NCBI RefSeq assembly: GCF_005233835.1
Contig: NZ_SZQA01000039.1
Location: 1 to 64,000, forward strand
Source of the DNA: Herbidospora galbida
GTDB lineage: Bacteria > Actinomycetota > Actinomycetes > Streptosporangiales > Streptosporangiaceae
Direction: 5' to 3'
DNA: 64,000 nucleotides
Part shown: positions 46,041 to 61,609 of the stretch, piece by piece
How positions within the stretch are numbered: the first letter of the stretch is position 1
Layout of the letters: every line of letters begins with the position of its first letter
Program-made: the position numbers and the translations under genes
Notes under the pieces: model-generated
Database searches by the model: none
Told to the model about the DNA's origin: nothing
Seen by the model: the letters and a program-made list of their open reading frames with translations, nothing else

Positions 46041-46155
46041 GATTCCTCCCGGCGACGGTTACACGACGTCACCAACAATCGCAGCCGGTGACGGATCGTG
46101 GGCGGAAAAGGCGCGCCGCGTTGAAGCCGATCCGCGACCGGGTTGAGGATGAGAC

Positions 46156-47331
46156 ATGACCTTTCAGGACGAGCTGGAAAAGCTGCGCCGATCCATCCAC
46201 CGGGAGCCCGAGATCGGCCTCGATCTGCCACGGACGCAGGAGAAGGTGCTGGCCGCCCTCGACGGGCTGCCCCTGGAGGTCACCACCGGCGAGAAACTCA
46301 CCTCCGTCACCGCCGTGCTGCGCGGCGGCCGGAGCGAGGGGAAGAGCGTCCTGCTGCGGGCCGACATGGACGCCCTCCCGATCCAGGAGCGCGTCCCGGT
46401 CGACTACCGGTCGGCCGTCGACGGCGCGATGCACGCCTGCGGCCACGACCTGCACACCGCCATGCTCGTCGGCGCCGCCCGGCTGCTCTCCGAACGCCGC
46501 GACCAGCTGACCGGCGACGTCGTGTTCATGTTCCAGCCCGGGGAAGAGGGCCACGAGGGCGCCAAACTCATGATCGACGAGGGCGTCCTGGACGCCTCCG
46601 GCAGCCGCGTCGTCGCCGCGTACGGCATGCACGTGTTCTCGGCCATCGTGCCGAGCGGCTGGTTCGTCACCAAGCCCGGCCCGATCCTGGCCGCCGCCGA
46701 CACCTTCAACGTGACCGTGCGCGGCCGGGGCGGCCACGGATCCACGCCCCACCGGGCCCTCGACCCGGTCCAGGTGGGCTGCGAGATCGTGAGCCAGCTG
46801 CAGACGTACACGACCCGGGCCTTCGACGTGTTCGACCCGGTGGTGATCACCGTCGGTCAGTTCCACGCCGGCACCGCCGACAACGTGATCCCCGACGAGG
46901 CCTACTTCCAGGCGACCATCCGCGCCTTCTCCGCCGAGACCCGCGCCAAGGTCAAGGAAGGGGTGGTCCGGCTGGCCACGGGCATCGCCGAGGCCCATGG
47001 CCTGCGCGCCGAGTGCACCTTCGGGATCGGCTACCCGGTGACGGTCAACGACGCCGCCGAGGCCGCGTTCGCCGAGGAGGTCGTGCCGGAGATCGTGGGG
47101 GCCGACCGCTATCTGACGATGCCGCGCCCGGCCACCGGGTCGGAGGACTTCTCATTCGTCCTCGACGAGGTGCCGGGCGCGTTCCTCGTGCTGGGCGCCC
47201 ACGCGAAGGGGGCCGACCCGGCGACCTGCGCGACCAACCACTCCCCCGAGACCGAGTTCGACGACTCGGTCATGGCCGACGGGTCACGCGTGCTGGCCGC
47301 CCTCGCGGAGCGGCGCCTACTTAGGGTTTAG
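46156..47331 (+). CDS. M20-family amidohydrolase (amino-acylase type)
   Basis: A 391-residue metallohydrolase. The metal site motifs are LLRADMDALPIQE and HACGHDLHTAM, the acidic GEEGHEG, the dimerisation-domain stretch RGRGGHGSTPHRALDP, and the last metal-binding His in CATNHSPETEF. Members deacylate N-acyl amino acids (hippurate hydrolase, IAA-amino acid hydrolase type). It ends 15 nt inside the convergent PGPGW gene. No pathway neighbour. Confidence 0.92.
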   Translation: MTFQDELEKLRRSIHREPEIGLDLPRTQEKVLAALDGLPLEVTTGEKLTSVTAVLRGGRSEGKSVLLRADMDALPIQERVPVDYRSAVDGAMHACGHDLHTAMLVGAARLLSERRDQLTGDVVFMFQPGEEGHEGAKLMIDEGVLDASGSRVVAAYGMHVFSAIVPSGWFVTKPGPILAAADTFNVTVRGRGGHGSTPHRALDPVQVGCEIVSQLQTYTTRAFDVFDPVVITVGQFHAGTADNVIPDEAYFQATIRAFSAETRAKVKEGVVRLATGIAEAHGLRAECTFGIGYPVTVNDAAEAAFAEEVVPEIVGADRYLTMPRPATGSEDFSFVLDEVPGAFLVLGAHAKGADPATCATNHSPETEFDDSVMADGSRVLAALAERRLLRV

Positions 47332-47763
47332 GAAGTTCAGCCCGTATTCGACCATGTCGAAGCCGAGCGTCAGCTTCAGGCACCCCCACACGATCGCGAA
47401 CGCCACCGCGAAGGTCAGCACCCCGGCGATGATCCGCACCGCCCAGTTCTGCCGCTTCAGCCAGTCGGTGGCGATCGTGACGTAACGCTTGGCGAACTCC
47501 AGCACCCGGTGGGCCCAGCTGAACTCGGTCGCCAGCAGCGCCAGCCCGGCGAACACGACCAGCCACCCCGGCCCCGGGAACGGCACCATGATGAGCCCGC
47601 CGATCACCATGGCCCCGCCGATCGTGCCGACCACGATCTTCAGGGTCAGAGCGCCCGTGCGGGTCGCGCGGAAACGGTCGAGCCGTCCCCTGATTCCACT
47701 GTTGTCCACCGCGACCGGCGTCTTCGGATCGACGTCGGGATCGGTGGGCCCGGCCATAGCCAT
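47317..47763 (-). CDS. PGPGW (TIGR02611) membrane protein
   Basis: A 148-residue protein with about three helices: a pair around the signature VPFPGPGWLVVFAGLALLA and one near the C-terminus. The PGPGW motif defines a family of putative transmembrane proteins of unknown role in actinobacteria. A second in-frame ATG lies 6 nt downstream. Confidence 0.85.
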   Translation of the reverse strand: MAMAGPTDPDVDPKTPVAVDNSGIRGRLDRFRATRTGALTLKIVVGTIGGAMVIGGLIMVPFPGPGWLVVFAGLALLATEFSWAHRVLEFAKRYVTIATDWLKRQNWAVRIIAGVLTFAVAFAIVWGCLKLTLGFDMVEYGLNFLNPK

Positions 47764-47839
47764 ATAGGTGTCACCCCCACGGCCAGCATAACCAGAGCGC
47801 TTGCAGCGGACTTTCCGTCAGATGGACCATTTGGGCTGA

Positions 47840-47880
47840 TCCCTGGGTCGTAGACGACATGTCGGTCTACGACCCAGGGA
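47840..47880 (-). terminator. 16-bp stem hairpin after the GH74 gene
   Basis: Positions 47840-47855 and 47865-47880 are perfectly complementary over 16 bp, with a 9-nt loop that itself contains GACATGTC. On the minus strand it begins 9 nt after the GH74 stop. No T-run follows, as usual in actinomycetes. Strong terminator or mRNA-protecting hairpin. Confidence 0.75.
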
Positions 47881-47888
47881 CAGGGCTT

Positions 47889-50606
47889 TCAGGCCGGTGT
47901 GCAGGTGACGGCGGGGATGGGGTTGGTCCCCGACTGGCTGGCGTTGAAGCCGAACGTGGTCGTGCCGTTCGGGTTCAGGTTGCCGTTGTAGCCGGCGTTC
48001 ACGACCGTCTGCTGCGCGCCGCTCGCGGAGTGGACGCCGTTCCAGAGCTGGGTGACGGTCTGACCGTTGGCCCAGGTCCAGCGGACGGTCCAGCCGGTGA
48101 TCGCGCTGGTGCCGCTGTTCCTGACGGTCACACTGGCGCCGAACCCGCCGGGCCACGGGTTCGTGATCGTGTACGTCGCCACGCACGCCTTACCGGGACT
48201 GGGAGACGGGGACGGCGACGGACTCGGGGAAGGCGAAGGCGAAGGTGAAGGCGACGGGCTGGGGCTGGGGCTGGGGCTCGCCGACGGGGAGGGGGACGGC
48301 GAGGGAGACGGCGACGGGGTGGGGCCGGTGCGGTCGGCGTACAGGATGCCTCTGCCGTTGGTGCCCAGGTAGACGCGGCCCCAGATCCGAGGATCGCCCG
48401 TGATGGCCTCGCCGATGTTGCCGTACTGGTGCTGGTCGTCGTTGATGCGGACCCACGTCGCGCCGGTGTCGTCGGAGCGGAAGACGCCGCGCACGCCGTC
48501 GATCTTCGCGACCAGGAAGATCGCCATGTACGACTGCCCGGGGGCCGCCTTGCCGAAGCCGACGTTGTCCGACTCCTCCACGTTGGAGATCTTCGTGAAC
48601 GACGTCCCGGAGTTGGTCGACCGCCACAGGCCCGCGCCGCCCGCCAGCCAGATGTCGCCCTCGCGCCCGGGAACCGCCTTGAACCGCGCCGTCGCGGGCA
48701 GGCCGGTCGCCGCGGAGGCGGTGAAGGTCTGGCCGCCGTTGGTGGAGACGTAGAAGCGGCCGTTGCTGAAGGCGTAGAACTTCTGCGGGTTCACCCGGTC
48801 CGATTCGACCCTCGCGCCCGACGGCACGCCGCTGGACGTCGCCCACGAGTTGCCGTACCCGACCGAGTAGACGACCGAAGCCCCGCTGTCGCCGGGAGCC
48901 CAGACGAACCGGCTGCCGTCGGCGGCCGCCGCGACGGTGCCGCCGTTGTTGATCCCGCCGGGTTCCTGGCCCTGGAACCAGTTGGCGCCGCCGTCGGTGG
49001 AGAAGGCGACGTGGTTGTCGCCGGGGCGGTCGGCCTCGGTGAAGTTGCCCACGCGGACCATCGTCGAGGGGTTGAGCTCGGCGTAGTCGAGCGAGGTCGT
49101 CGAGGTGAAGTTGGGCTGCAGGAACATCATCGGCGGCACGGCGTCGAGGTTGGTGTGCCGGAAGCCGCCGATGTCGCCCAGGCCGGAGATCAGCGGGGCC
49201 GCGCCGGTCGGCGGGCTGATCAGGTCGAGGACGGCGGTCTCCTCCAGGCCCTTGACCATCGGCTTGATGGTGAGCTGGCCGCCGGTGTCCCACAGTTTCA
49301 GGTCGGTCGAACCGTAGATGGTGGCGCCGGTGCCGTACATGAAGCGGTTGCCGTCGAAGGGGTCGATCTCCAGCGACTCGGTCATCCAGCCCAGCTTGGG
49401 CGTGACCTCCGGGGGCTGCGGGTTGGCTCCCCAGCTGAGCCACGGCGCGGAGCTGATGTCCATCTTGTAGCGGAAACTACGGTTCGGGTACGAGGTGAAG
49501 TCCCAGATCCGCGTCCAGGTGGCCCCGGAGTCGGTCGACCGCCAGAAGATCACGTCGGGCCACCAGGAGATCTGCGTGGCCACCATGATCGTGCTCGGGT
49601 TGGTCCGGTCGATGGTCAGGCCGGAGTAGCCGAAGTAGGCGTCGCCGCTGCTCGACGGGATCGGCGAGATCTGCGTCCACGTGCCGGTCGCGGTGGCGTA
49701 GCGCCAGACGTCGCCCTTGGCCCCCGAGTAGGGCCCGGCGGTGTCGGAGGTGGCGAGGTAGAGGTAGCCGTTGACGTGGTCGAGCACGCCCTTGTGCGCG
49801 ATGTAGCCGGTGGGGGTGCCGGGGAGGCGCTCCCACGTGGTGCCGCCGTTGGTCGTCCGGTAGACGGTGTTGGCCTTGTCGGCCACGCCGACGTAGATCG
49901 TCTGGGTGGCGCTGCCGGACGTGCCGGTGCGCTTGTCGAAGGTCACCCACACGACGCCGGGCTGGTGGCTGGTGTAGCCGTTGGGGTCACTCGGGTCGTC
50001 GCTGTAGTTCCCGGCGTTCGGGAAGCTGGTGACCTTGGCCCAGGTCGCGCCGTAGTCGGTGCTCCGCCACAGGCCGTTGCCCATCGGCGCGCCCAGGTAG
50101 AGCGTGGAGTTGCGGTTGGGGTCGACGGCGAGCCGCTCCCCCATGCCCCGGCCGGGCATGTTGCCGCCCATCTTGAACGGCAGCGGGGTGACCGACCACG
50201 AGTCGCCCTTGTCGCTCGACCTGAGGATGGCCCCGTTGTTGGGGTCCCAGGAGTTGGTGTACATGCCGACGGCGGCGTACACCCGGTTGGTCTGCACGGG
50301 GTCGGTCGCGATGCTGTCGACGCCGTTGTAACCCCAGTTCGTGAAGCCGACCCAGTCGAGCAGCGGCTTCCACGACGAGCCCGACTGGTCCCAGCGGTAC
50401 ATCCCGCCGATGTCGGTCCGGGCGTAGATGAGGTTGCGCTCGGTCGGGTTGAACACGATGCCCGGGACGAATCCGCCGCCGTCGATCCGCACGTTCTTGT
50501 ACGTGTACGGATCCGAGGCGACCGCCCCCGCGGGGGCCATCCGCACCACCGCCGCGACCAGGGCCAGGGCGAGGATCGCGAGCATGCTGACGATCTTTCT
50601 TCGCAT
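47889..50606 (-). CDS. Secreted GH74 xyloglucanase with CBM2
   Basis: A 905-residue secreted enzyme. Signal peptide about 1-28 (cut near AGA/VAS); two seven-bladed propeller halves of the GH74 fold (about 35-760), with the repeated Asp-box-like segments (TDxGGMYR, STDYGATW, TTNGGTTW, STDGGANW, STNGGQTF); a long Pro-Ser linker (about 765-805), and a C-terminal family 2 carbohydrate-binding module (about 806-905) with the paired Cys and Trp residues for cellulose binding. It probably cuts xyloglucan in plant walls. ATG 50606 has GGAGGAG upstream. An inverted repeat (50692-50712) upstream may be its operator. Confidence 0.93.
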   Translation of the reverse strand: MRRKIVSMLAILALALVAAVVRMAPAGAVASDPYTYKNVRIDGGGFVPGIVFNPTERNLIYARTDIGGMYRWDQSGSSWKPLLDWVGFTNWGYNGVDSIATDPVQTNRVYAAVGMYTNSWDPNNGAILRSSDKGDSWSVTPLPFKMGGNMPGRGMGERLAVDPNRNSTLYLGAPMGNGLWRSTDYGATWAKVTSFPNAGNYSDDPSDPNGYTSHQPGVVWVTFDKRTGTSGSATQTIYVGVADKANTVYRTTNGGTTWERLPGTPTGYIAHKGVLDHVNGYLYLATSDTAGPYSGAKGDVWRYATATGTWTQISPIPSSSGDAYFGYSGLTIDRTNPSTIMVATQISWWPDVIFWRSTDSGATWTRIWDFTSYPNRSFRYKMDISSAPWLSWGANPQPPEVTPKLGWMTESLEIDPFDGNRFMYGTGATIYGSTDLKLWDTGGQLTIKPMVKGLEETAVLDLISPPTGAAPLISGLGDIGGFRHTNLDAVPPMMFLQPNFTSTTSLDYAELNPSTMVRVGNFTEADRPGDNHVAFSTDGGANWFQGQEPGGINNGGTVAAAADGSRFVWAPGDSGASVVYSVGYGNSWATSSGVPSGARVESDRVNPQKFYAFSNGRFYVSTNGGQTFTASAATGLPATARFKAVPGREGDIWLAGGAGLWRSTNSGTSFTKISNVEESDNVGFGKAAPGQSYMAIFLVAKIDGVRGVFRSDDTGATWVRINDDQHQYGNIGEAITGDPRIWGRVYLGTNGRGILYADRTGPTPSPSPSPSPSPSASPSPSPSPSPSPSPSPSPSPSPSPSPSPGKACVATYTITNPWPGGFGASVTVRNSGTSAITGWTVRWTWANGQTVTQLWNGVHSASGAQQTVVNAGYNGNLNPNGTTTFGFNASQSGTNPIPAVTCTPA

Positions 50607-50691
50607 GGACGGTTTCTCCTCCGTGAATGGATAACCGGCCATGCACGATCGGGTGGGGACCCTGACCGTCCGCCGCGCGCGTGCATGGTAC

Positions 50692-50712
50692 TTGGTTTGA
50701 TTACCAAACCAA
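50692..50712. promoter_or_regulatory. Inverted repeat between GH74 and deformylase genes (candidate operator)
   Basis: TTGGTTTG (50692-50699) and CAAACCAA (50705-50712) form perfect 8-bp arms with a 5-nt spacer. It lies 86 nt before the GH74 start (leftward) and 69 nt before the deformylase start. AT-rich arms of this type resemble ROK- or LacI-type sugar operators, suggesting carbon control of the xyloglucanase (inference). Confidence 0.5.
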
Positions 50713-50780
50713 CTATCTCAGGTCCGGGCCGCTGCGACAATGAGAGAGGACCACGACCCATCACCGAGGCGGAGCACCCC

Positions 50781-51308
50781 ATGACCGGCACGGCCAGACT
50801 CATCACGATCGTCGGAAACCCCGTGCTGCACACCCCGTGCCGCCCGGTCGTGAAGTTCGACGACGAGCTAGCCCTGCTGGCCGACGACATGTTCGCGAGC
50901 ATGTACGCCGCCGAGGGCGTCGGCCTGGCCGCCAACCAGATCGGCGTGGCCCTGCGGATCTTCGTCTACGACTGCCCCGACGCCGACGAGGTCTACCAGA
51001 AGGGCGTGGTCGTCAACCCGACCCTGGAGCTGCCCGACCCCGACGACCAGGTCTTCGACGTCGGCGGCGAGGGCTGCCTGTCGGTGCCCGGCCCACGCGC
51101 CGGGCTCGGCCGCCCCGATGTGGCCACCGTCCACGGCTTCGACCTCACCGGCGCGGCGATCAGCGTGACCGGCACGGGCGTGCTGGCCCGCTGCTTCCAG
51201 CACGAGACCGACCACCTCAACGGCATCCTCTACATCGACCACCTCTCGGAGGAGGCGCGCGAGGCGGTGATGGAGGAGTTCCGCGAACTCCAGAAAGACG
51301 AGTCGTGA
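50781..51308 (+). CDS. def: Peptide deformylase
   Basis: A 175-residue deformylase. The three active-site motifs are present: GVGLAANQIG, EGCLSVPG (C99 metal ligand) and QHETDHLNG (H141, E142, H145). It removes the formyl group from new proteins using a metal ion. ATG 50781 has GGAG 7 nt upstream. Slightly shorter at the C-terminus than E. coli Def. The stop overlaps the methyltransferase start (GTGA). Confidence 0.93.
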   Translation: MTGTARLITIVGNPVLHTPCRPVVKFDDELALLADDMFASMYAAEGVGLAANQIGVALRIFVYDCPDADEVYQKGVVVNPTLELPDPDDQVFDVGGEGCLSVPGPRAGLGRPDVATVHGFDLTGAAISVTGTGVLARCFQHETDHLNGILYIDHLSEEAREAVMEEFRELQKDES

Positions 51309-51880
51309 ACTGGGACCCCGACTGGGACCGTGAGGCCGCCACCTTCGACGACGAGCCCGACCACGGCCTGCGCGACCCGGCCGTGAGAGCGGCCTGGGCC
51401 GGCCGCCTGGCGGCCTGGCTCCCGCCCGCGCCCGCCGACGTCTTCGACGCGGGCTGCGGCACGGGCTCCCTGACCCTGCTCACAGCGGAAATGGGTCACC
51501 GGCCGGTCGGCGTCGACCGGTCGGCCGAGATGGTGAAGCGGGCCCGCCGCAAGCTGGCCGAGGCCGGGTACACGCCCGAGATCATGGTCGGCGACGCCGA
51601 CGACCCGCCGGGCCACTTCGACGTCGTCCTCTGCCGCCACCTCCTGTGGGTCTTCGACGACCCGGCAGCCGTGCTGCGCGGGTGGGTCGCGAGCCTGCGC
51701 CCCGACGGCCGCCTCGTCCTGGTCGAGGGCCGCTGGGGCGCTGCCGGGATAAGGGCCGAGGACCTGGTCGGCATGGTCCGGCCCCTGGTCAGGGAGGTCA
51801 CGGTCGAGCCGCTGCCCGACCCCGCGTTGTGGGGCCGGCCGATCCACGACGAGAGATACGCCGTGGTCGCCCTCCCCTAG
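51305..51880 (+). CDS. SAM-dependent methyltransferase
   Basis: A 191-residue class I methyltransferase: motif I is VFDAGCGTGSLTLL, motif II VGVDRSAEMV, and the later block VVLCRHLLWVFDD. The N-terminal WDREAATFDDEPDHGL resembles small-molecule methyltransferases. GTG 51305 overlaps the deformylase stop by 4 nt. Substrate unknown. Confidence 0.88.
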   Translation: MNWDPDWDREAATFDDEPDHGLRDPAVRAAWAGRLAAWLPPAPADVFDAGCGTGSLTLLTAEMGHRPVGVDRSAEMVKRARRKLAEAGYTPEIMVGDADDPPGHFDVVLCRHLLWVFDDPAAVLRGWVASLRPDGRLVLVEGRWGAAGIRAEDLVGMVRPLVREVTVEPLPDPALWGRPIHDERYAVVALP

Positions 51881-51908
51881 CGGCCGTCGATAGAACATAA
51901 TTCGGTAC

Positions 51909-52733
51909 ATGACGAGAGCATTGGTTCTGGGCGGCGGGGGCATCGCCGGCATCGCCTGGGAAGCGGGGATTGTCACCGGCCTGCGCCGCGAGGGCGTCGA
52001 TCTGGGGGCCGCCGACACGATCATCGGCACGTCCGCCGGTTCCGTCGTCGGCACCCTCATCGCCACCGGCGCCGACCTGGAGCAGGCCGTCGCGCGGCAG
52101 AGCACGTCCGACCACGGGCCCCGCCCCGCCGTCGACATGGCGCCGGTCATGCAGGCGTTCGGGATTCTCTTCGATCCCAGCATCGACCCGAAGGAGGCCC
52201 GCCGGAGGGTCGGCGAGCTCGCCCTGGCCCTCCCCGTGGTCGACGGCATGGCCCGGATCGAGTCGCTCGGCGACCGGCTCCCGGTGAAGGTGTGGCCCGA
52301 GCGCGACCTCCAGGTCACCGCCGTCGACGCCGCCACCGGCCAGTTCGTCGTCTGGACCCGCGAGTCGGGCGTCGAGCTCACCCTGGCCGTCGCCTCCAGT
52401 TGCGCCGTCCCGTGCGTCTACCCGCCGGTCGAGATCAACGGGGCCCGCTACATGGACGGCGGCGTCCGCAGCGGCACCAACGCCGACCTGGCCAGGGGCG
52501 CCGACACGGTCGTCGTGCTCGAACCGCTCACCGGCATGGTCCCGCCCGAGCGCCTGGCCCGGGAGCTGAAGAAGACCGGCGCGTCGAGCACCGTGTCGAT
52601 CGGCCCCGACGAGGCGGCCAAGGCCGTGTTCGGCAGCAACGTCCTCGACCCGGGCCTGTGGGCCCCCGCCTTCAAGGCCGGCCTCGCCCAGGCGCCCTCG
52701 GTCGCCGCGGGGGTCGGCGAGGTCTGGGACTGA
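51909..52733 (+). CDS. Patatin-like phospholipase
   Basis: A 274-residue patatin. GGGGIAGIAWEAG is the oxyanion loop, S42 in IIGTSAGSV the nucleophile, and D in YMDGGVRSGTN the second catalytic residue. Only 28 nt separate it from the methyltransferase gene. Probably cytoplasmic; target lipid unknown. Confidence 0.9.
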   Translation: MTRALVLGGGGIAGIAWEAGIVTGLRREGVDLGAADTIIGTSAGSVVGTLIATGADLEQAVARQSTSDHGPRPAVDMAPVMQAFGILFDPSIDPKEARRRVGELALALPVVDGMARIESLGDRLPVKVWPERDLQVTAVDAATGQFVVWTRESGVELTLAVASSCAVPCVYPPVEINGARYMDGGVRSGTNADLARGADTVVVLEPLTGMVPPERLARELKKTGASSTVSIGPDEAAKAVFGSNVLDPGLWAPAFKAGLAQAPSVAAGVGEVWD

Positions 52734-52762
52734 GAGCCTCTTTTCCGGCAAGTATGAGGCGC

Positions 52763-53185
52763 ATGAGCAACCCGACTGACGGCGACATCCGCGAGATCAA
52801 CCGCAAGACGATCGAGGAGTTCCGCGCCCACAAGGGCGGTGGCCCCTTCGAGGGCCGCGCCCTGCTGATCCTGACCACCCGTGGCCGCGTCACGGGCCGC
52901 CCCCACACGACCCCGATGATGTACGTCCTGGAGGGCGACCACCTCCTGGTCATGGCCTCGGCCGCGGGCGCCCCGGAGGACCCGGAGTGGTTCCGCAACC
53001 TCCTCAAGACCCCGGAGGTCACCGTCGAGGTCGGCGACCAGGTCTACATCGCCACGGCCCGCCCGACGGAAGGGGCCGAGTACGACGCGCTGTGGTCGCA
53101 GATCAAGAAGAACTTCCCGTTCTTCTCCGAACACGAGAAGGCGGCCGGCCGCAAGATCCCGGTCGTCGCACTGGAACGCAACTGA
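52763..53185 (+). CDS. F420-type (deazaflavin) nitroreductase family oxidoreductase
   Basis: A 140-residue protein of the Ddn/PNPOx-like split-barrel family: LLILTTRGRVTGRPHTTPMMYV is the core strand pair, and WFRNLLKTPEVTVEVGDQVY the second. Members reduce quinones or nitro compounds with F420H2. ATG 52763 is used; an in-frame ATG 9 nt upstream is possible. A hairpin terminator follows. Confidence 0.88.
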   Translation: MSNPTDGDIREINRKTIEEFRAHKGGGPFEGRALLILTTRGRVTGRPHTTPMMYVLEGDHLLVMASAAGAPEDPEWFRNLLKTPEVTVEVGDQVYIATARPTEGAEYDALWSQIKKNFPFFSEHEKAAGRKIPVVALERN

Positions 53186-53197
53186 ACAGGATTCAAA

Positions 53198-53221
53198 GGC
53201 TCCCCTCACGGCGGGGGAGCC
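53198..53221 (+). terminator. Hairpin after F420-type oxidoreductase
   Basis: GGCTCCCC (53198-53205) pairs with GGGGAGCC (53214-53221) around an 8-nt loop, 13 nt after the stop; a short T-containing stretch (ATTGTC) follows. This marks the boundary of the lower-GC region. Confidence 0.65.
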
Positions 53222-53316
53222 ATTGTCGTCTACGCACCGCCGGACAGGATCTCGCCAATCGTGTAGCACCAATAACGAAGTTCAGTGTCATATGGCGCAT
53301 GGACTAGAATCCGCCC

Positions 53317-54828
53317 ATGGCCGACGGCGAGAGACCATCCGATCCACGGGTCAAGCGATGGCTACATCTATTGAAGCAGCGCGCAACGATCCAGATCGAT
53401 TCCGTGAAGATAATCGAGTCGAATGTCTTCGAGCCACAGGTCATCTCATTCGACCGGGCGACCGCCATTGTCGGCTATCACGGAACCGGCAAGACGGTCC
53501 TCGCACGTATGCTCGAGGTCGCCTTCGGCTACCGCTCGCCAGGCCACACGCCTCCCTTGTTCGTCAATCATGATTCCGACATGGAAGTCAATGGCATTTT
53601 AACGGGAATCATCGATGTCACGCTGTCCACCGGCGCGACGAAGACGACCAGAACCATCGACCTGTCGTGGGGAGGAGGTCAACGGCGACAGGCGTGGGGT
53701 GAACAAATCCCGCACACCTGGGATGTGACATACGCAAGCGCCGTGACGGCCTTCGATGATCTGGTCTTGATGTATCAAGAATATCCACGCATCACGAAGT
53801 TCACGAGCGAGGAATTCCCACCCTTCAGTCTCAGCCGCGCCGACCTGAACGGCATCAAGAACATACTTGGCCGTCACTACGAAAGCGTAGTGGTCAACCC
53901 CGTCGTCGTCAGCGGGACGAAGGACAGCCCCTTGGACTACTGTCCCTATGTCGTGGCCGAGACGCCATACGGCACCGTCGACTCCGGCAAGATGAGCTTG
54001 GGCGAGATCTGGGTGCACTTCGTACTCAATTGGGTCATGCGCCAGGAGGGCAGCGCTTTCGTCATCGACGAACCCGAGAGTTTCCTGTCCAACCTCGGGC
54101 AGAGACCTTTTATCGACGAGATGGCGAGAAGCGCGCTGGCAAGCGACAGCCAGTTCATCGTGGCGACCCACTCCGAGCAGATCCTGAGCCGCTTCCCCCT
54201 CGACAACATCAGGATGTGCGTGAGAACGGACGGCAAGGTGAGAGTCATCGCCCCTACCTCTCGCACACAAATTCGTGATGCCGTGGGTGTCGACACTCCA
54301 CTACGCGCATTCGTCCTCGTCGAAGACGATTTCGCCGCCCTCCTGCTCCGCGCCATGTGCGCCGAAATCGCCCCCTGGGTGCTACGCGAGGCCGAAGTCA
54401 TCGCTTCGGGAGGCGCTGCCGAAGTGGTCGCCGCTCTGCGTGCGTTCAGAACATCGTCCCGCATCGGCTCCATCGCCATCCTTGACGGTGACCAACGGCA
54501 ATCATCGGTCACCAAGAAGGCTGCACCGGGGTTGTTCTACTTCCCCGGAACAGGCGATCCCGAGCAAGAACTCCTGAATGCAGTCGAGGCGGGCGGAGCA
54601 ACCGTCGCAAAACTACTCGGCCGACCAAGTGGAGACATCGTCGCGGCACTGACGTCAACCGCCCACCTGGATCACCAATATCAATTGCGGGCGTTCTCAG
54701 AACGCCTCGGCCTGCAATTCGACTTCGTCATTCAGATGCTGGTGCGCCTCTGGATGCGTAAGCCTGGGGTCAGACGCCAAGCGCAGAGCATAGCGACCGC
54801 ACTGGAAGACGCGACATCCGGCATGTGA
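53317..54828 (+). CDS. OLD-family-like ATPase with TOPRIM-like C-terminus
   Basis: A 503-residue ABC/SMC-like ATPase. Walker A is GYHGTGKT (53-60), a signature-like KMSLGE (225-230), Walker B VIDEPES (249-255) and switch H285 in ATHSEQ. The C-terminal third fits a TOPRIM fold, with E336 in LVEDDFA and D390/D392 in ILDGDQ as possible metal ligands. Overcoming-lysogenization-defect nucleases have this layout and often act in phage defence. Codon use is visibly different from all neighbours: many A/T-ending codons and a rare TTA (L95, at 53599). The gene stands alone, without an adjoining UvrD-like partner (as in Gabija systems) or DNA methylase. Defence function is inference. Confidence 0.85.
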   Translation: MADGERPSDPRVKRWLHLLKQRATIQIDSVKIIESNVFEPQVISFDRATAIVGYHGTGKTVLARMLEVAFGYRSPGHTPPLFVNHDSDMEVNGILTGIIDVTLSTGATKTTRTIDLSWGGGQRRQAWGEQIPHTWDVTYASAVTAFDDLVLMYQEYPRITKFTSEEFPPFSLSRADLNGIKNILGRHYESVVVNPVVVSGTKDSPLDYCPYVVAETPYGTVDSGKMSLGEIWVHFVLNWVMRQEGSAFVIDEPESFLSNLGQRPFIDEMARSALASDSQFIVATHSEQILSRFPLDNIRMCVRTDGKVRVIAPTSRTQIRDAVGVDTPLRAFVLVEDDFAALLLRAMCAEIAPWVLREAEVIASGGAAEVVAALRAFRTSSRIGSIAILDGDQRQSSVTKKAAPGLFYFPGTGDPEQELLNAVEAGGATVAKLLGRPSGDIVAALTSTAHLDHQYQLRAFSERLGLQFDFVIQMLVRLWMRKPGVRRQAQSIATALEDATSGM

Positions 54829-54890
54829 TCGACTTATCGATCGGACTGCGGCGCGCGTGACACGGTGAACTCCCGGGGTAGCGGGGGGCC

Positions 54891-56555
54891 GTGCTCGCTC
54901 TTGCTCCCCAGGACCTCCGCCTGGATGTCAACGCGCTGGACTACCTGATCCTGGCGCTCTACTTCGCCGTCGTGGTGGGCATCGGATTCGCCGCCCGCCG
55001 CGCCATCCGCTCCTCCAGCGACTTCTTCCTCGCCGGGCGTGCCCTGCCCGCGTGGATCACGGGTCTCGCGTTCGTCTCCGCCAACCTCGGGGCGATCGAG
55101 ATTCTTGGCATGGCCGCCAACGGAGCCCAGTACGGCCTCATGACCGTGCACTACTACTGGATCGGCGCCATTCCGGCCATGGTGTTCCTCGGCATCGTGA
55201 TGATGCCGTTCTACTACCGGTCGAAGGTGCACAGCGTGCCGGAGTTCCTCCGGCGCAGGTTCAATCCGGCCACGCAGCTGTTCAACGCCATCGCCTTCGC
55301 CGTCGCGCAGGTGCTGATCGCGGGGATCAACCTCTACGCGCTGGCGCTCGTGATGGAGGCGCTGCTCGGCTGGCCCCTCTGGCTGTCGGTGATCGTGTCG
55401 GCGGCGATCGTGCTGGCGTACATCACCCTGGGTGGCCTTTCCTCGGCCATCTACAACGAGGTCATGCAGTTCTTCGTGATCATCGCGGGGCTGGTCCCGG
55501 TGGTCGTGCTGGGGCTGATCCGGGTCGGCGGGTTCGAGGGGCTCGGGCAGAAGGTGCGGGAGAGCGTGCTCGGCGACGGGGCGCTGCACACCTGGTCGAA
55601 CACCGCGACGACCGACAACCCGCTCGGGGCCAACTGGATCGGGATCGTGTTCGGGCTCGGGTTCGTGCTGTCGTTCGGTTACTGGACGACCAACTTCGCC
55701 GAGGTGCAGCGCGGGCTGTCAGCGCGGAACACCAACGCGGCGCGGCTGACGCCGATCGTGGCGGCCTATCCGAAGCTGCTGATCCCGGTCGTCACCGTGA
55801 TCCCGGGCCTGATCGCCCTGGTGCTCTTCTCGAACCTCGGCAAGGACGGCGGGCCCGAGTACAACTACGCGATCCCGCTGCTCATGAACGAGTTCCTGCC
55901 CAACGGCGTGCTCGGCGTCGCGGTCACGGGCCTGCTCGCCTCGTTCATGGCCGGCATGGCGGCCAACATCTCGGGGTTCAACACCGTGTTCACGTATGAC
56001 ATCTGGAAGGGTCACGTGAACGGGGAGAAGTCCGACGAGTTCTATGTACGACTGGGGCGCATCGCCACCATCGGCGGTGTGGTCGCCGGGATCGGCACCG
56101 CGTTCATCGCGGCCGGGTTCTCGAACATCATGAACTACCTCCAGGCGCTGTTCGCCTTCTTCAACGCGCCCCTGTTCGCGACGTTCATCATCGGCCTGTT
56201 CTGGAAGCGGATGACCCCGTGGGCCGGCTTCTGGGGCATCATCGCGGGCACCCTGGCGGCGTTCGCGGTCTACATCCCCTACCGCGCCGGGATCCTGGAC
56301 CTCGGCACCGACCTCAACGCCTCGTTCGTCGCGGCGGGCGCCGCGTTCCTGGTCGACGCGGTCATCTCGGTCGTGATCACGCTGGTCACCACGCCCAAGC
56401 CGGAGGAAGAGCTCCGGGGTCTGGTGTACGGCCTGACCGACGTCGACCTCAAGGACGACTCCATCGCCGGGGACAAGGCGTGGTACCGCTCCCCCGTGAT
56501 CCTCGGCTCCGGCGCGCTGGTCCTGGCCGCCGCCTTCTACCTGCCTTTCCTGTAA
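54891..56555 (+). CDS. Sodium:solute symporter (SGLT-like)
   Basis: A 554-residue membrane transporter with about 13-14 helices. The N-terminal YFAVVVGIGFAARR, FFLAGRALPAWITG and the helix ANLGAIEILGMAANGA match sugar-type SSS proteins such as vSGLT. It imports a sugar or related solute with sodium ions. GTG 54891 follows a run of G. It is followed 10 nt later by a tiny membrane protein gene with a perfect ribosome site. Confidence 0.9.
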   Translation: MLALAPQDLRLDVNALDYLILALYFAVVVGIGFAARRAIRSSSDFFLAGRALPAWITGLAFVSANLGAIEILGMAANGAQYGLMTVHYYWIGAIPAMVFLGIVMMPFYYRSKVHSVPEFLRRRFNPATQLFNAIAFAVAQVLIAGINLYALALVMEALLGWPLWLSVIVSAAIVLAYITLGGLSSAIYNEVMQFFVIIAGLVPVVVLGLIRVGGFEGLGQKVRESVLGDGALHTWSNTATTDNPLGANWIGIVFGLGFVLSFGYWTTNFAEVQRGLSARNTNAARLTPIVAAYPKLLIPVVTVIPGLIALVLFSNLGKDGGPEYNYAIPLLMNEFLPNGVLGVAVTGLLASFMAGMAANISGFNTVFTYDIWKGHVNGEKSDEFYVRLGRIATIGGVVAGIGTAFIAAGFSNIMNYLQALFAFFNAPLFATFIIGLFWKRMTPWAGFWGIIAGTLAAFAVYIPYRAGILDLGTDLNASFVAAGAAFLVDAVISVVITLVTTPKPEEELRGLVYGLTDVDLKDDSIAGDKAWYRSPVILGSGALVLAAAFYLPFL

Positions 56556-56565
56556 GGAGGACGCG

Positions 56566-56799
56566 ATGCTGTTCGACATCCGCCGCATCCTGGGCGGCCT
56601 GTTCGCCGTCTACGGCGTGATCCTGGTCGTCGTCGGCCTCCTCGACGGGGCCGAGGAGATCGCCAAGGCCGAGGGGGTGCGGATCAACCTGTGGACCGGG
56701 ATCGGGATGCTGGTGCTGGCCGCGATCTTCCTGGTGTGGGAGCGGCTGCGGCCCAAGGACGTGCCCGACCCCTCCGACGACGCCTCAGGTGATGCCTAG
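56566..56799 (+). CDS. Small two-helix membrane protein
   Basis: A 77-residue protein with two helices (about 6-27 and 43-60), short loops with acidic residues, and a charged C-terminal tail. TAAGGAGGACGCG before the ATG gives a strong ribosome site. Always-adjacent small membrane partners are known for some SSS transporters, so it may be an accessory subunit (inference). The end overlaps the convergent binding-protein gene by 15 nt. Confidence 0.75.
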   Translation: MLFDIRRILGGLFAVYGVILVVVGLLDGAEEIAKAEGVRINLWTGIGMLVLAAIFLVWERLRPKDVPDPSDDASGDA

Positions 56800-57858
56800 C
56801 TCCGCGCACATCGACTTCATGGTGGCCGGGTTGCAGACCTCGTTGACCGTCCAGAAGCCGTCCTTGACCACGGTGTCCTTGATCGTCTCCCGGGTCACCA
56901 CGATCGCCTTGGTGATCATGGCGGGGATGTCCTGCTTGGTGTCGTTGCCGACCGTGCTGGTGCCCCGGATCGGCCGTCCGGCGCCCAGGTCGACGGCCAG
57001 CTGGGCGGCGTTCTGGGCCTCGGGCTGGATCGGCTTGTAGATGGTCATGGTCTGGGTGCCGACCATGATGCGGTGGATGGCGTCCAGGTCGGCGTCCATG
57101 CCGGTCAGCGGGGTGTCGGGGGGCAGGCCCGAGTCGCGGATGGACGAGGCGGCGCCGCCGGCGAGGCCGTCGTTGGCGGCGTACACGCCGATGATGTTGG
57201 TGGGGCCCAGGCGGTCCATGGCCATCTCGGACTCTCGTTCGGCCTCTTCGGGGCTCCAGCCGGGGGTGTCGTACTCGGCGCCGATGCGGACCCGCCCGTC
57301 CAGGGCCGAGTGGGCGCCGGCCTTGAACTCGGCGGAGTTGGGGTCGGTGATCGGGCCGTTGAGCATGATGATCTCGCCCTTGCGGCCGCGCGCCCTGATG
57401 GCGTCGACCAGGGCCTGGCCCTGCAGCCGGCCGACCTCGAAGTTGTCGAAGGAGGTGTAGGCCTCGATGGCGCCCTCGGCGAGGCGGTCGTACGAGACGA
57501 TCCTGACGGCCCGTGCGGCGGCGCTGTCGACCGAGGGCTGGATGCCACGGGCGTCCACGGGGGTCAGGATGACGGTCTTGATCCCCTGGGCGGTCAGCTG
57601 GTCGAGCTGGCGGCGCTGCGCGACGGGGTCGCCCTCGGCGTTGACCGAGACGATCTCGCAGTTGGGGCAGAGCTGGGCGACCGACGAGGTGATGTACGGA
57701 CGGTCGAACTTCTCCCAGCGGGGGGTCGTCTGGTCGGGGAGCATCAGCCCGATCTTGAACCCGCGCGCGATGATCTCGGCTGGACCCACCGCCCTGGGCT
57801 TCTCAGACCCACAGGCGGCCACGCCGACAACCAGCGCCAGCGCGAGAAAGGTCCTCAC
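56785..57858 (-). CDS. Sugar-binding lipoprotein (periplasmic-binding-protein type I)
   Basis: A 357-residue ABC substrate-binding protein of the xylose/ribose type. Lipobox VVGVAAC (C16), first-lobe opening FKIGLMLPDQTTPRWEKFDRPY, hinge blocks ILTPVDARGIQ and AANDGLAGGAA, and the last ligand-contact block MDADLDAI. Similar to XylF/ChvE. GTG start at 57858. No ABC permease or ATPase gene is adjacent, so it is an orphan here. Confidence 0.9.
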   Translation of the reverse strand: MRTFLALALVVGVAACGSEKPRAVGPAEIIARGFKIGLMLPDQTTPRWEKFDRPYITSSVAQLCPNCEIVSVNAEGDPVAQRRQLDQLTAQGIKTVILTPVDARGIQPSVDSAAARAVRIVSYDRLAEGAIEAYTSFDNFEVGRLQGQALVDAIRARGRKGEIIMLNGPITDPNSAEFKAGAHSALDGRVRIGAEYDTPGWSPEEAERESEMAMDRLGPTNIIGVYAANDGLAGGAASSIRDSGLPPDTPLTGMDADLDAIHRIMVGTQTMTIYKPIQPEAQNAAQLAVDLGAGRPIRGTSTVGNDTKQDIPAMITKAIVVTRETIKDTVVKDGFWTVNEVCNPATMKSMCAELGIT

Positions 57859-57947
57859 TCATGCCCCCCGTTCGTCTGGGGAGGCCTACCCTGCTCGTTG
57901 CCGGGGGGTAACGGCGGCGACGGAGTCTTGATGGACCTTTTCCGACA

Positions 57948-57957
57948 TGACTAGTCA
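57948..57957. promoter_or_regulatory. TGACTAGTCA palindrome in divergent region (candidate operator)
   Basis: A perfect 10-bp palindrome between the sugar-binding lipoprotein gene (leftward, start 57858) and the LysR gene (rightward, start 58013), 56 nt before the latter. Position fits autoregulation by LysR or control of the binding protein. Confidence 0.4.
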
Positions 57958-58012
57958 GAATGTGTGACAAATCATCATTGCTGGAGTTATTCGGGGGTCA
58001 TACCTTCGCGTT

Positions 58013-58972
58013 ATGGACCTGGAGCTCCGCCACCTCAGAATCGTGCGTATGGTCGCCGAGACCGGCAGCGTCACCAAGGCGGCCAGTGCGCTCGGGCTCG
58101 CCCAGCCCGCGCTCACCGCGCAGTTGAAGCGGATCGAACGGGCACTCGGGGGCACCCTGTTCGAGCGGGACCACACCGGTTCCCGCCCCACCCCGCTGGG
58201 GGAGCTGGTGCTCGCCCGCGCACAGGTGCTGCTGCCCGCCGTGCAGCAGCTGCAGGAGGAGGCCGCCCGGCTCGCCAACGGCGAACCCGACGGCCGCCGC
58301 TACCGGATCGGCGCCGCCAACGGGCCGATCCTGGGCGGCCTGGTCGACCGGCTGGCCGCCGCCGAGCCCGGCGCCGTGATCACCACCGCCACGTCGTGGT
58401 CGACCGGGGAGCTGGCCACCAAGGTGATGCTCGGCCGGCTCGACTTCGCCCTCATCGGGGTCTGCGGCGACTCCCGGCCGCTCGGCGACGAGGCGCTGTC
58501 GTGGGCCCTGGTCGCCAACGACCCGGTGTTCGTGCTGGTCGCCGAGTCGCATCCGCTGGCCGGGGAACGGGAGGTCGAGCTCGGCGACTTCGCCAGGGAG
58601 CAGTGGGCGGTCACCCCCGGCGACGGCTGCTTCGGCGAGTGCTTCGCCGTCGCCGCGTCGCGGTCGGGGTTCGCCCCCGAGGCGATCTACGAGACCGACG
58701 TCGCCACCTGCCTGCACCTCGTGCGGGTCGGCCGCGCCGTGGCGCTGTGCCAGGCCACGTTCCGCCGGAGCGAGGGGATGGTCGCCTTACCCCTGCGCGG
58801 GGCGCCGCTGCGCTGGCGGCAGCTGCTCGGCTGGCATCCGGAGACCCCCGCCGCCCAGTCGGCGCCGGCCGTGGTCAGCCACGCCAAGTTCTCCCATCTG
58901 GACGCCGTCAGGCAGAGCACCCCCTACTCCAACTGGCTGGCCCGGAACCCGGGATACGGCACCATGCCATAA
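58013..58972 (+). CDS. LysR-family transcriptional regulator
   Basis: A 319-residue regulator. The winged helix (about 3-62) has HLRIVRMVAETGSVTKAASALGLAQPALTAQLKRIE, shortened here to its key residues; the effector domain (about 95-295) is of the type I periplasmic fold with an extra Cys-rich stretch GDGCFGECF. Contains one rare TTA codon (L259, at 58787). Divergent from the sugar-binding protein gene. Its effector is unknown. Confidence 0.9.
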   Translation: MDLELRHLRIVRMVAETGSVTKAASALGLAQPALTAQLKRIERALGGTLFERDHTGSRPTPLGELVLARAQVLLPAVQQLQEEAARLANGEPDGRRYRIGAANGPILGGLVDRLAAAEPGAVITTATSWSTGELATKVMLGRLDFALIGVCGDSRPLGDEALSWALVANDPVFVLVAESHPLAGEREVELGDFAREQWAVTPGDGCFGECFAVAASRSGFAPEAIYETDVATCLHLVRVGRAVALCQATFRRSEGMVALPLRGAPLRWRQLLGWHPETPAAQSAPAVVSHAKFSHLDAVRQSTPYSNWLARNPGYGTMP

Positions 58973-59068
58973 CCGGCCCATAACACGGTGATAGGGGGCA
59001 AACGACGGCTCCTCTGGGGCGTGCCTGGAGATTACGTTCAGGGCACTCCCAGCCCCCAAGGAGAATCG

Positions 59069-60508
59069 ATGCGCAGCAGGCACATCCTGAGCGCGGCGAG
59101 CGCCCTCACCATGGGCGTCGCCCTCGTCCTGTCCTCCGCCCCGGCCGCCGTCGCGGCGCCGGCGAAACCGGCACCGTCGATGTTGGAGGCCCTCCAGCGC
59201 GACCTCAACCTCTCCGCCGAGCAGGCCCAGCTCCGCCTCGTCAACGAGGCCCGGCTCGGCAAGCTCGAGGGCAAGGTCCGCACCGACCTCGGCGCCGCCT
59301 TCGGCGGGTCGTGGCTCAGCGGTGACACCGCGAACTCGCTGACGGTCGCGACCTCGGACGCCTCCAAGGTCGGCGTCATCGAGGCCGGCGGCGTCAAGGC
59401 GCAGGTCGTGACCCGGTCGTTGGGCGACCTGACCGCGCTCAAAGACAAGCTCGACGCCGCCACGGCCCCGCAGACCGTGCCCGTCTACTACGTCGACGTG
59501 AAGTCGAACTCGGTCGTCGTCGAGACCCGCGACCAGGCCGCCGCCGAGGCGTTCGTGGCCGCCGCCGGGGTCGACAAGGCGGCCGTGACCTTCGTCGCGT
59601 CCAGCGAGCAGCCGGTCCCCTACTACAACCTGCGCGGCGGCGACGCCTACTACATCAACAACTCGGGCCGCTGCTCCATCGGCTTCTCGGTCACCCGCGG
59701 CACCACCCCCGGCTTCGTCACCGCGGGCCACTGCGGCACGACCGGCAGCTCGACCCAGGGCTACAACCGGGTCGCGCAGGGCACCTTCCAGGGCTCCTCG
59801 TTCCCGGGCAACGACTACGCCTGGGTCGCGGTGAACTCCAACTGGGTCCCGACCGCGACGGTGGCCGGCACCTCCGCCACCGTGTCGGGTTCGACGGCGC
59901 AGGTCGTCGGCGGCTCGATCTGCCGCTCGGGCTCCACCACCGGCTGGCACTGCGGCACCGTCCAGCAGATCGGCACGTCGGTCACCTACCCGCAGGGCAC
60001 CGTCTCGGGCGTGACCCGCACCAACGTCTGCGCCGAGCCCGGCGACTCGGGCGGCTCGTGGATCTCCGGCACCCAGGCCCAGGGCGTCACCTCCGGCGGT
60101 AGCGGCAACTGCTCCGTCGGCGGCACCACCTACTTCCAGCCGGTCAACGAGATCCTCTCGGTCTACGGCCTGACCCTGACCACCACGGGCACCCCGCCCG
60201 GCGGCGGCACCTGCAGCGGCTACGCCAGCACCACCACCGGCTCGGTCAGCAGCGGCGGCAACGCCTACAGCGCCCAGTTCACCGCCAACGCGGGCACCCA
60301 CCGCCTGTGCCTCGACGGCCCGAACGGCGTCGACTTCGACCTCTACCTGCAGCGCCTGAGCGGCTCGACCTGGACCAACGTGGCCAGCGGCACCAGCTCC
60401 GGCCCGGACGAGACCGTCACCTACAACGGATCCGCGGGCACCTACCGGTACCGCGTCCACGGCTACAGCGGCTCGGGCAGCTTCACCCTCGCCTACACCC
60501 GCCCGTAG
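59069..60508 (+). CDS. Secreted S1-family serine protease with propeptide and C-terminal PPC-like domain
   Basis: A 479-residue streptogrisin/alpha-lytic-type protease. Signal peptide about 1-30; a propeptide (about 35-185) with the alpha-lytic pro-domain strands; a catalytic domain with H221 in TAGHC, D249 in GNDYAW and S327 in GDSGGS, plus three Cys pairs; and a C-terminal PPC-like beta domain (about 383-479) with FDLYLQR. ATG 59069 has AAGGAGAATCG upstream. Start of mature enzyme probably near YYNLRGGD. Two terminator hairpins follow. Confidence 0.94.
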   Translation: MRSRHILSAASALTMGVALVLSSAPAAVAAPAKPAPSMLEALQRDLNLSAEQAQLRLVNEARLGKLEGKVRTDLGAAFGGSWLSGDTANSLTVATSDASKVGVIEAGGVKAQVVTRSLGDLTALKDKLDAATAPQTVPVYYVDVKSNSVVVETRDQAAAEAFVAAAGVDKAAVTFVASSEQPVPYYNLRGGDAYYINNSGRCSIGFSVTRGTTPGFVTAGHCGTTGSSTQGYNRVAQGTFQGSSFPGNDYAWVAVNSNWVPTATVAGTSATVSGSTAQVVGGSICRSGSTTGWHCGTVQQIGTSVTYPQGTVSGVTRTNVCAEPGDSGGSWISGTQAQGVTSGGSGNCSVGGTTYFQPVNEILSVYGLTLTTTGTPPGGGTCSGYASTTTGSVSSGGNAYSAQFTANAGTHRLCLDGPNGVDFDLYLQRLSGSTWTNVASGTSSGPDETVTYNGSAGTYRYRVHGYSGSGSFTLAYTRP

Positions 60509-60523
60509 AAAGTAAAACTTTCT
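60507..60523 (+). terminator. Small hairpin at the stop of the S1 protease gene
   Basis: AGAAAGT (60507-60513) and ACTTTCT (60517-60523) form a 7-bp stem with an AAA loop, overlapping the TAG stop. Confidence 0.4.
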
Positions 60524-60533
60524 GCCGATTCAG

Positions 60534-60565
60534 CACCGTCGGGCTTTATTTGCGGCCCGGCGGTG
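60534..60565 (+). terminator. 11-bp hairpin after S1 protease gene
   Basis: CACCGTCGGGC (60534-60544) pairs with GCCCGGCGGTG (60555-60565), with one U-G wobble, over a 10-nt loop; T-rich DNA follows at about 60566-60590. Good rho-independent terminator candidate 26 nt after the stop. Confidence 0.75.
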
Positions 60566-60612
60566 TTGACCATTTTGAGACCTTTTCGGATGACTTGTAT
60601 GGGGGACGTTCA

Positions 60613-61596
60613 ATGTCGGGCACCAGCCGCCACATCAGGGCGCTGGCGGGCTGCATCGTCGCAGCTCTCGCCGGTCTGCTCCTGATCGGCACGGGCCTCC
60701 ACCTGTCCGGCGCGGGCTGGCACATCGCCCGCTGCCTGTCCGGCGACGAATCCCCCTTCGACGCGGCCGTCCTCCCCGCGGGCTATCCGGGGCTCGGGAC
60801 CATCCCGTCCCTGCCCGAGACGGCCGTTCCCCAGATCCGCGCGGTACCCGGCGTCGCCGACGCCGTCCCCGTCCAGGGCGGCGAGGTCGGCCTGGTCGGC
60901 TTCGGCACCCTGGTCCCGCTGGAGGCGGTGGCGCTGGACATGGCGTTGCTGTCGTCCTCGGGCATGGAGGGCGAGGCCCCGCGCAGCGCCTCCGACGCGA
61001 TCCTGGACAAGCGCACCGCCGACCAGCTGCACCTGCAGATCGGCGAGACGATCACGGTGCACGGCAACGGCGCCGACCGCTCCTTCGAGATCACCGGCAT
61101 GACCGCGGCGCGCGGCAACCCCACCTTCGACGTCCGGGGCACCCTGGGCGTGCTGCCCATGTCGGCGGCCGACCTGGTCGGCCCGCTGGAGACCGAGGCG
61201 GTGCACGTCCGCGCCGACAACGACGTCGACCCCGGCGAACTGCGCGACCGTCTGCAGGCCTCCCTGGGCGGCGAGTACGACGTCGTGACCCACGCGGAGA
61301 TGCTCGCCACCGGCGACGTGACCGCCGAGACGCTCCCGCCGGTGCTCGGCGTGGTGGGCTCGCTGCTGGTGGTGGGGGCGGCGCTGACGGCGTACATGGG
61401 CCGGCAGACGACGACCACCACGAGCCTGCTGATGGCGACGGCGGTGCTGAGCGTGACGGCGACGGCCGCGGTGATCGTGGCGTCGGCGGGCCTGGAGATC
61501 TCCACGCCGACGATCCTGGCGGTGGCGGGCACGACGGCCGTGGCGGCGATGGCGGCGATGGTGCTGCGCCCGAAGATCCTGGCCCAGATCGGCTGA
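60613..61596 (+). CDS. Short FtsX/MacB-like membrane protein
   Basis: A 327-residue protein. A helix at about 10-30 is followed by an extracytoplasmic MacB-core-like domain (about 50-240, with ILDKRTADQLHLQIGETITV), then three C-terminal helices (about 250-320). It looks like half of an FtsX-type permease. No partner ATPase or other half is adjacent. GGGGGAC precedes the ATG at 7-nt distance. The first gene of the window is the same superfamily. Confidence 0.7.
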   Translation: MSGTSRHIRALAGCIVAALAGLLLIGTGLHLSGAGWHIARCLSGDESPFDAAVLPAGYPGLGTIPSLPETAVPQIRAVPGVADAVPVQGGEVGLVGFGTLVPLEAVALDMALLSSSGMEGEAPRSASDAILDKRTADQLHLQIGETITVHGNGADRSFEITGMTAARGNPTFDVRGTLGVLPMSAADLVGPLETEAVHVRADNDVDPGELRDRLQASLGGEYDVVTHAEMLATGDVTAETLPPVLGVVGSLLVVGAALTAYMGRQTTTTTSLLMATAVLSVTATAAVIVASAGLEISTPTILAVAGTTAVAAMAAMVLRPKILAQIG

Positions 61597-61609
61597 CGCC
61601 GCGACGGCG

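Follow-up and report, generated by a model that had tools for sequence, protein, structure and literature searches.

We sought to determine what a solitary gene with the architecture of an OLD nuclease is doing between two ordinary chromosomal genes of the actinobacterium Herbidospora galbida, and whether it is best understood as a defense system in its own right. The window that was analyzed is a 64,000-nucleotide stretch of contig NZ_SZQA01000039.1 (positions 1 to 64,000). The analysis points to a horizontally acquired, stand-alone ATPase-nuclease of the OLD family, class 1 by its context, that most likely defends its host against phages or other invading DNA.

Architecture and fold of the encoded protein

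The gene occupies one intact, fused open reading frame in which an ABC-type ATPase is joined to a TOPRIM domain. Its features are as follows.

53317..54828, + strand: OLD-like ABC ATPase-TOPRIM gene, 503 aa; intact ORF with conserved motifs and a TOPRIM fold
53473..53496, + strand: Walker A, GYHGTGKT, residues 53-60; motif reading and alignment
53992..54006, + strand: ABC-type signature, MSLGE, residues 226-230; every member of the eight-member clade described below has S227 and E230
54058..54078, + strand: Walker B (IDEPE), residues 248-254, with D251 and E252; motif reading and alignment
54166..54174, + strand: switch histidine (ATHS/THS), H285; motif reading and alignment
54322..54324, + strand: TOPRIM glutamate E336; in 16/16 aligned sequences, the window's included
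54484..54492, + strand: TOPRIM DGD motif, D390 and D392; in 16/16 aligned sequences, the window's included
54544..54564, + strand: PGxxxPE motif, residues 410-416; also present in the HEC-04 member L082

All four elements of an ABC-type head (Walker A, signature, Walker B and switch histidine) were looked for and found, as was a C-terminal TOPRIM domain with acidic metal-binding residues. The initial annotation had named this same set of features, and they proved to be both present and conserved. Within the eight-member clade, Walker A, the signature serine, Walker B, the switch histidine and E336/D390/D392 were invariant in every aligned member, while the signature glycine G229 varied and was kept in five of the eight. 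The Walker A lysine and the switch histidine, like E336, D390 and D392, were shared by all 16 aligned sequences, which answers the earlier concern that the TOPRIM residues might not be conserved. We regard the ATPase-TOPRIM architecture as well supported.

Profile searches were then compared across several collections. It was noted that Pfam returned only sub-threshold AAA matches, with no TOPRIM match at E 0.1, and that NCBIfam gave no match at its cut-off. The best PADLOC matches were HEC-04 (2.3e-17) and the retron ATPase-Toprim_I-B model (1.5e-13); NsnB was matched at 5.5e-10, and several GajA models weakly. At 1e-5, each of the six proteins in alignment A2 matched HEC-04, retron ATPase-Toprim_I-B and one GajA model. 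When the six-member profile was searched against solved structures, it recovered the Thermus scotoductus OLD protein (TsOLD; 5.7e-9), PtuA (3.4e-7) and AriA (1.4e-4).

A full-length AlphaFold model, built from five sequences that included two near-identical Nocardia carnea proteins, reached a mean pLDDT of 75.8 and a pTM of 0.61, with unsure domain placement. Its top Foldseek hits were TsOLD (6p74) and Gabija GajA, and OLD, GajA and PtuA proteins were all matched. Superposition of the whole chain on these hits was poor (TM-scores of about 0.2-0.5, large rmsd), which a wrong or different arrangement of the domains would explain. VIA aligned only the ATPase half of this model, to SMC, Rad50 and PtuA heads at Z 15.7-18.7, and no OLD protein was among the 50 matches listed. 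The TOPRIM domain (179 residues) was then folded alone, and the best model had a pLDDT of 89.6 and a pTM of 0.85 (mean pLDDT 72-81 in the other four). The best VIA match of this domain was TsOLD 6p74 (Z 10.6, 2.7 A over 127 residues), followed by class 2 OLD domains and two PARIS entries at Z 8.2-9.5, with the next row at 6.9. Eight rows scored above Z 8, all of them OLD or PARIS entries except the hypothetical protein 2p62 (Z 8.4), and the class 2 OLD domains superposed less tightly than TsOLD, at 4.8-5.6 A over 162-170 aligned residues. Foldseek placed the class 2 OLD domains first (7.4e-5 to 9.8e-4) and 6p74 seventh (0.047). Lack of a helical insert in TOPRIM is a mark of class 1, and on this point the tighter VIA fit to TsOLD and the Foldseek order lean in opposite directions. 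The earlier OLD-like reading of this protein was borne out by both the profile searches and the structure models.

Composition and insertion site

The gene stands apart from the rest of the window in composition. Its GC content was 0.595 and its GC3 0.726, compared to a mean GC of 0.725 (sd 0.027, minimum 0.667) and a mean GC3 of 0.927 (minimum 0.696) among 43 other window ORFs, which were automatic picks of at least 150 aa with GC3 >0.6 and may include some spurious frames. Its 504 codons include AGA eight times, CTA five times and TTA once (codon 95, 53599). Per 1000 codons, AGA was used 15.9 times and CTA 9.9 times, against 1.0 and 0.6 in 13 hand-chosen window genes. These values agree with the initial description of an AT-richer island with altered codon style. 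The surroundings of the gene are listed below.

52754..53185, + strand: left flank, F420H(2)-dependent quinone reductase family gene; PF04075, 9.1e-31; conserved in the genus
53181..54850, no strand assigned: acquired insert, approximate limits; congener flank homology breaks off and then returns
53198..53221, + strand: strong terminator-like hairpin lacking a T-run, inside the insert near its left junction; inverted repeat I6
53305..53310, + strand: TAGAAT, possible -10 box, 6 nt before the ATG; found by eye
54891..56555, + strand: right flank, sodium:solute symporter gene; PF00474, 2e-44; conserved in the genus

Both flanking genes, which lie on the same strand as the OLD-like gene, were recovered in all six congeners by a DNA search with the locus. 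Homology to these genomes ended at 53180-53187 and restarted at 54837-54875, and the AT-richer stretch was found to match a true insertion relative to the six. In three of them (G001, G005 and G006), homology ended at 53180 and restarted at 54875, 54837 and 54852, respectively; here the flanking genes are 30 bp apart, measured from the stop codon to the symporter start codon used in the window, with nothing between them. The OLD-like protein had no match in any of the six congeners. A protein search of 100 genomes (H. galbida included) at E 0.001 returned four with a match, namely the genome itself, G094 (36% identity), G082 (30%) and G030 (partial, 7.2e-4). Judging by its composition together with its absence from 6/6 congeners, the gene is foreign and was horizontally acquired. 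No transposase or integrase was seen by eye among the ORFs of 46000-62000, and no convincing target-site duplication or terminal repeat was found at the insert.

In the other three congeners (G002, G003 and G004), the same gap is filled by 1.1-1.2 kb of different DNA carrying two genes, a Panacea-PemK toxin-antitoxin pair (L039:4542-5597, L040 and L041). Pfam was run on the G002 pair, identifying a SocA/Panacea antitoxin-like protein (2.8e-6, above the cut-off) and a PemK/MazF-like toxin (2.8e-9), and the G003 and G004 pairs were taken as homologues from their translations. Among the seven genomes, the antitoxin-like protein was present only in these three carriers. The initial annotation had proposed a comparison with strains lacking the gene, and this comparison yielded three empty sites and three filled with toxin-antitoxin genes. 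Orthologues at the same place with native codon use, which would have spoken against an acquired island, were found in 0/6 congeners, and the codon use of the window gene is foreign. One intergenic position with three alternative contents (empty, toxin-antitoxin and OLD-like) across seven genomes amounts to a small natural experiment.

The cassettes were 77-83% identical to one another, compared to 90-95% for the flanks of their carriers. G002 and G004 are the closest carriers by their flanks (95.4%), yet they hold the least similar cassettes (77.2%). Cassettes that are less alike than their flanks would suit repeated exchange at this spot, though toxin-antitoxin genes may alternatively have evolved faster.

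We also examined the sequence between the left junction and the start codon. The hairpin, described earlier as a clear terminator, forms a strong stem, and the 51 nt at 53186-53236 that contain it gave a folding z of -3.9, with 0/200 shuffles as good. It has no T-run, however, and is absent from the list produced by the terminator scan. By eye, the six congeners showed no such hairpin at their junctions. The sigma-70/promoter scan reported no site, and the TAGAAT found by eye six bases before the ATG suggests a possible leaderless message from the gene's own promoter. With such a promoter, the OLD-like unit would be self-contained.

Relatives and placement within the OLD family

The phylogeny comprised 16 sequences, the window's included; rows L073 and L074 were dropped because they failed a crude filter. 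The window protein fell inside a clade of eight members with support of 99/97, and its own place in the clade was weakly supported (84/78). The closest member was that of G913 (38% identity), followed by proteins from Nocardia carnea (35%), Rhodococcus sp. G-MC3 (30%), Phytoactinopolyspora halophila (28%), G165 (28%), G257 (27%) and G925 (26%). Six sequences (L049, L050, L066, L080, L081 and L082) had long branches, and for this reason we relied on the eight-member clade only.

The family is rare. At E 1e-15, a nearly full-length match was found in 4/341 genomes of the same taxonomic family and any match in 9/341, with matches in 7/394 genomes of the class and 3/396 of the phylum (H. galbida included in each). 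A single-sequence scan of genome contigs found no relative; the alignment-based scan recovered ten loci, of which four were close to full length. One short match was recorded in viral contigs, none in phages, and five partial matches below 30% identity in plasmids. In a narrow literature search on OLD proteins, actinobacteria and anti-phage activity, the titles and opening lines of abstracts held nothing on this clade.

The genomic neighborhoods of the relatives were diverse. The window gene, the Rhodococcus relative (beside ychF) and the G257 relative (beside the SAICAR synthetase gene) sit among ordinary genes and not in a defense island, while some other relatives adjoin a type III-A retron, a TIR gene, or relaxase-like and transposase-like genes (the last two by eye). 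Next to the N. carnea relative (L052:7452-9476), the neighboring genes look by eye like transposases, and the protein itself carries an N-terminal extension of about 177 residues with no Pfam match. By eye, this extension resembles the helix-turn-helix modules that precede actinobacterial NTPases. The Phytoactinopolyspora relative (L054:7944-10518) has a same-strand TIR-domain gene 220 bp downstream and adjoins a large gene that, by eye, encodes a MobF-type relaxase. A TIR partner was rejected as a general feature: the tree pairs this relative with that of G165, and inspection by eye showed no TIR gene next to the G165 gene. In G925 (L076:5078-9692), a type III-A retron with PRTase and reverse transcriptase genes is followed about 0.6 kb later by the OLD-like relative. 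Derivation of the window gene from a retron, suggested by this neighbor, was likewise rejected: the G925 reverse transcriptase is of type III-A and lies beside its own PRTase gene, so that the retron and the OLD-like gene are probably neighbors in a defense island.

Four genes around the window gene were scanned with Pfam, and no UvrD/helicase, reverse transcriptase, HNH or GmrSD_N gene was found among them. Nor was an adjacent partner common to the eight clade members seen in the ORF lists by eye, with Pfam for some neighbors, where the G913 contig spans just 8,149 bases. The earlier statement that no partner gene is present holds within this scope. The direct neighbors of the window gene are the quinone reductase and symporter genes, and by this genetic context the protein is a class 1 OLD. 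It shares with class 1 proteins (TsOLD, P2 Old and YbjD) the single-gene organization, the N-terminal ABC ATPase and C-terminal TOPRIM, the solitary setting, and a TOPRIM model closest to TsOLD by VIA. It differs in its TOPRIM motifs (VED, LDGD and PGxxxPE) and in being a chromosomal actinobacterial gene; the profile match to TsOLD reached only E 5.7e-9, with 15% identity in the Foldseek alignment.

The other OLD classes fail for missing partner genes or for lack of gene splitting. Class 2 (Gabija GajA) has the same fold family, yet no UvrD-like GajB/helicase was present among the four neighbors scanned. Class 3 (the retron type I-B ATPase-TOPRIM) gave the second-best profile match, but no reverse transcriptase was present among the four neighbors and no Rfam match was found in 52700-55300; retron ncRNAs are poorly covered in Rfam. 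A search for the retron I-B gene in 149 genomes at 1e-20 returned no match, but its controls were likewise without a match, so this search is uninformative. In class 4 (PARIS), the ATPase and TOPRIM are encoded by separate genes, whereas the window gene fuses them in one ORF; fused PARIS forms are mentioned in PMC10568477.

Closer in profile terms is HEC-04/IbfA, the best PADLOC match and likewise a single ATPase-TOPRIM gene, whose member L082 has ED, LDGD and PGxxxPE motifs in common with the window protein. However, the window protein scored only 60.7 bits against the HEC-04 profile, with its best stretch at residues 243-432, covering 184/494 profile positions. The HEC-04 protein of G835 scored 672 bits over positions 2-491 of 494 and is 19% identical to the window protein. 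By this sequence comparison, which takes the 672 bits of G835 as its yardstick instead of the curated PADLOC cut-off, the window protein lies outside HEC-04 proper. We conclude that the gene is a further member of the OLD family, in a divergent and rare actinobacterial clade.

The wider family includes solitary as well as paired arrangements. In L079 and L080, a GmrSD_N/NsnA-like gene lies directly upstream of the OLD-like gene with an overlap of a few bases, and the window protein resembles the NsnA/NsnB-type pairs (PADLOC names) through its NsnB match of 5.5e-10. These two features favor the idea that the window gene is half of a system, with its partner elsewhere in the genome or supplied by a host protein. 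We consider this unlikely: no GmrSD_N gene lies among the four scanned neighbors of the window gene, neither such a gene nor a common adjacent partner was noticed by eye beside the other clade members (ORF lists, with Pfam for some neighbors), and L079 and L080 fall outside the well-supported clade. Separately, L079 (8114-14788) shows what looks like an operon encoding type I specificity and restriction subunits, the GmrSD_N/NsnA-like protein and the OLD-like ATPase-TOPRIM, a possible composite restriction system.

Proposed function and competing explanations

From what is reported of its relatives, a role of the window gene in phage defense is likely. P2 Old is described as interfering with phages as a single-gene protein (PMC13096335), acting via tRNA degradation (PMC13096335, PMC12904381), while other OLD enzymes are reported to cut or nick DNA (PMC10568477). 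IbfA, the HEC-04 homologue, is likewise described as a single-gene phage interference protein that lowers phage yield in a manner reminiscent of abortive infection; according to its authors, it is not an ATPase and acts by phage gene misregulation (PMC12111858). By analogy with OLD enzymes (PMC10568477), the ATPase heads of the window protein would respond to nucleotide and to a cue of infection and would control a two-metal TOPRIM nuclease.

On this analogy, the best reading is that the window protein would act as a self-contained interference or abortive-infection nuclease. It may dimerize through its ATPase heads, with the nucleotide state holding the TOPRIM nuclease off. An infection signal would release it; candidates are DNA ends left unprotected, inhibition of a host recombination nuclease, or intermediates of phage replication. 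The TOPRIM domain would then cut nucleic acid (DNA or tRNA) with Mg2+ or Mn2+ and halt the phage, probably with loss of the cell.

Other OLD proteins caution against reading function from architecture. The anti-phage effect of Escherichia coli YbjD is reported to appear only on induced expression and to persist without the TOPRIM domain, and deletion of ybjD is reported to leave phage susceptibility unchanged in plaque assays (PMC13261556). Cran1, an archaeal OLD protein, is described with a cell-cycle role and is apparently not a defense protein (PMC12796447). These two cases indicate that architecture alone proves neither defense nor which domain acts. The YbjD report lends some substance to an arrangement in which the ATPase of the window protein blocks the phage and the nuclease, dispensable for this effect, serves another purpose. 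Retention of the acidic residues in 16/16 aligned sequences is what would be expected if cutting matters, but YbjD also has TOPRIM acidic residues and their conservation is weak evidence on this point; overall, such an arrangement appears improbable.

The initial annotation had left open a single-gene system or a cargo remnant, and our results favor the former. The foreign composition and sporadic presence of the gene are what a passenger or remnant of a mobile element without present function would also show. The open reading frame is nevertheless intact with every catalytic residue kept, no mobility gene was seen by eye in 46000-62000 and no terminal repeat was found, leaving the remnant as a quite unlikely account. 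A role in chromosome maintenance or the cell cycle, as for Cran1 (PMC12796447), or in SMC/RecF-like repair, to which the VIA resemblance of the ATPase head to SMC and Rad50 heads would lend itself, is very unlikely for a gene absent from 6/6 congeners and matched nearly full length in only 4/341 genomes of the family (its own included).

With defense by a self-contained nuclease as the preferred reading, a wider and distinctly tentative proposal can be made. The eight-member clade could be a self-sufficient OLD lineage in its own right, with a trigger and a target particular to it. The gap between the quinone reductase and symporter genes of this genus could be a spot where stand-alone defense units, here the Panacea-PemK pair and the OLD-like nuclease, are swapped by homologous exchange of the shared flanks, without an integrase; we consider this combination possible but rather doubtful.

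A 2023 review (PMC10568477) counts among its open questions whether broad phage defense can come from a class 1 OLD protein alone. Later single-gene tests are described as made in E. coli or Salmonella (PMC13261556, PMC12111858, PMC13096335). A naturally solitary actinobacterial member, with a clean empty site in sister species, offers a tractable test outside these two hosts.
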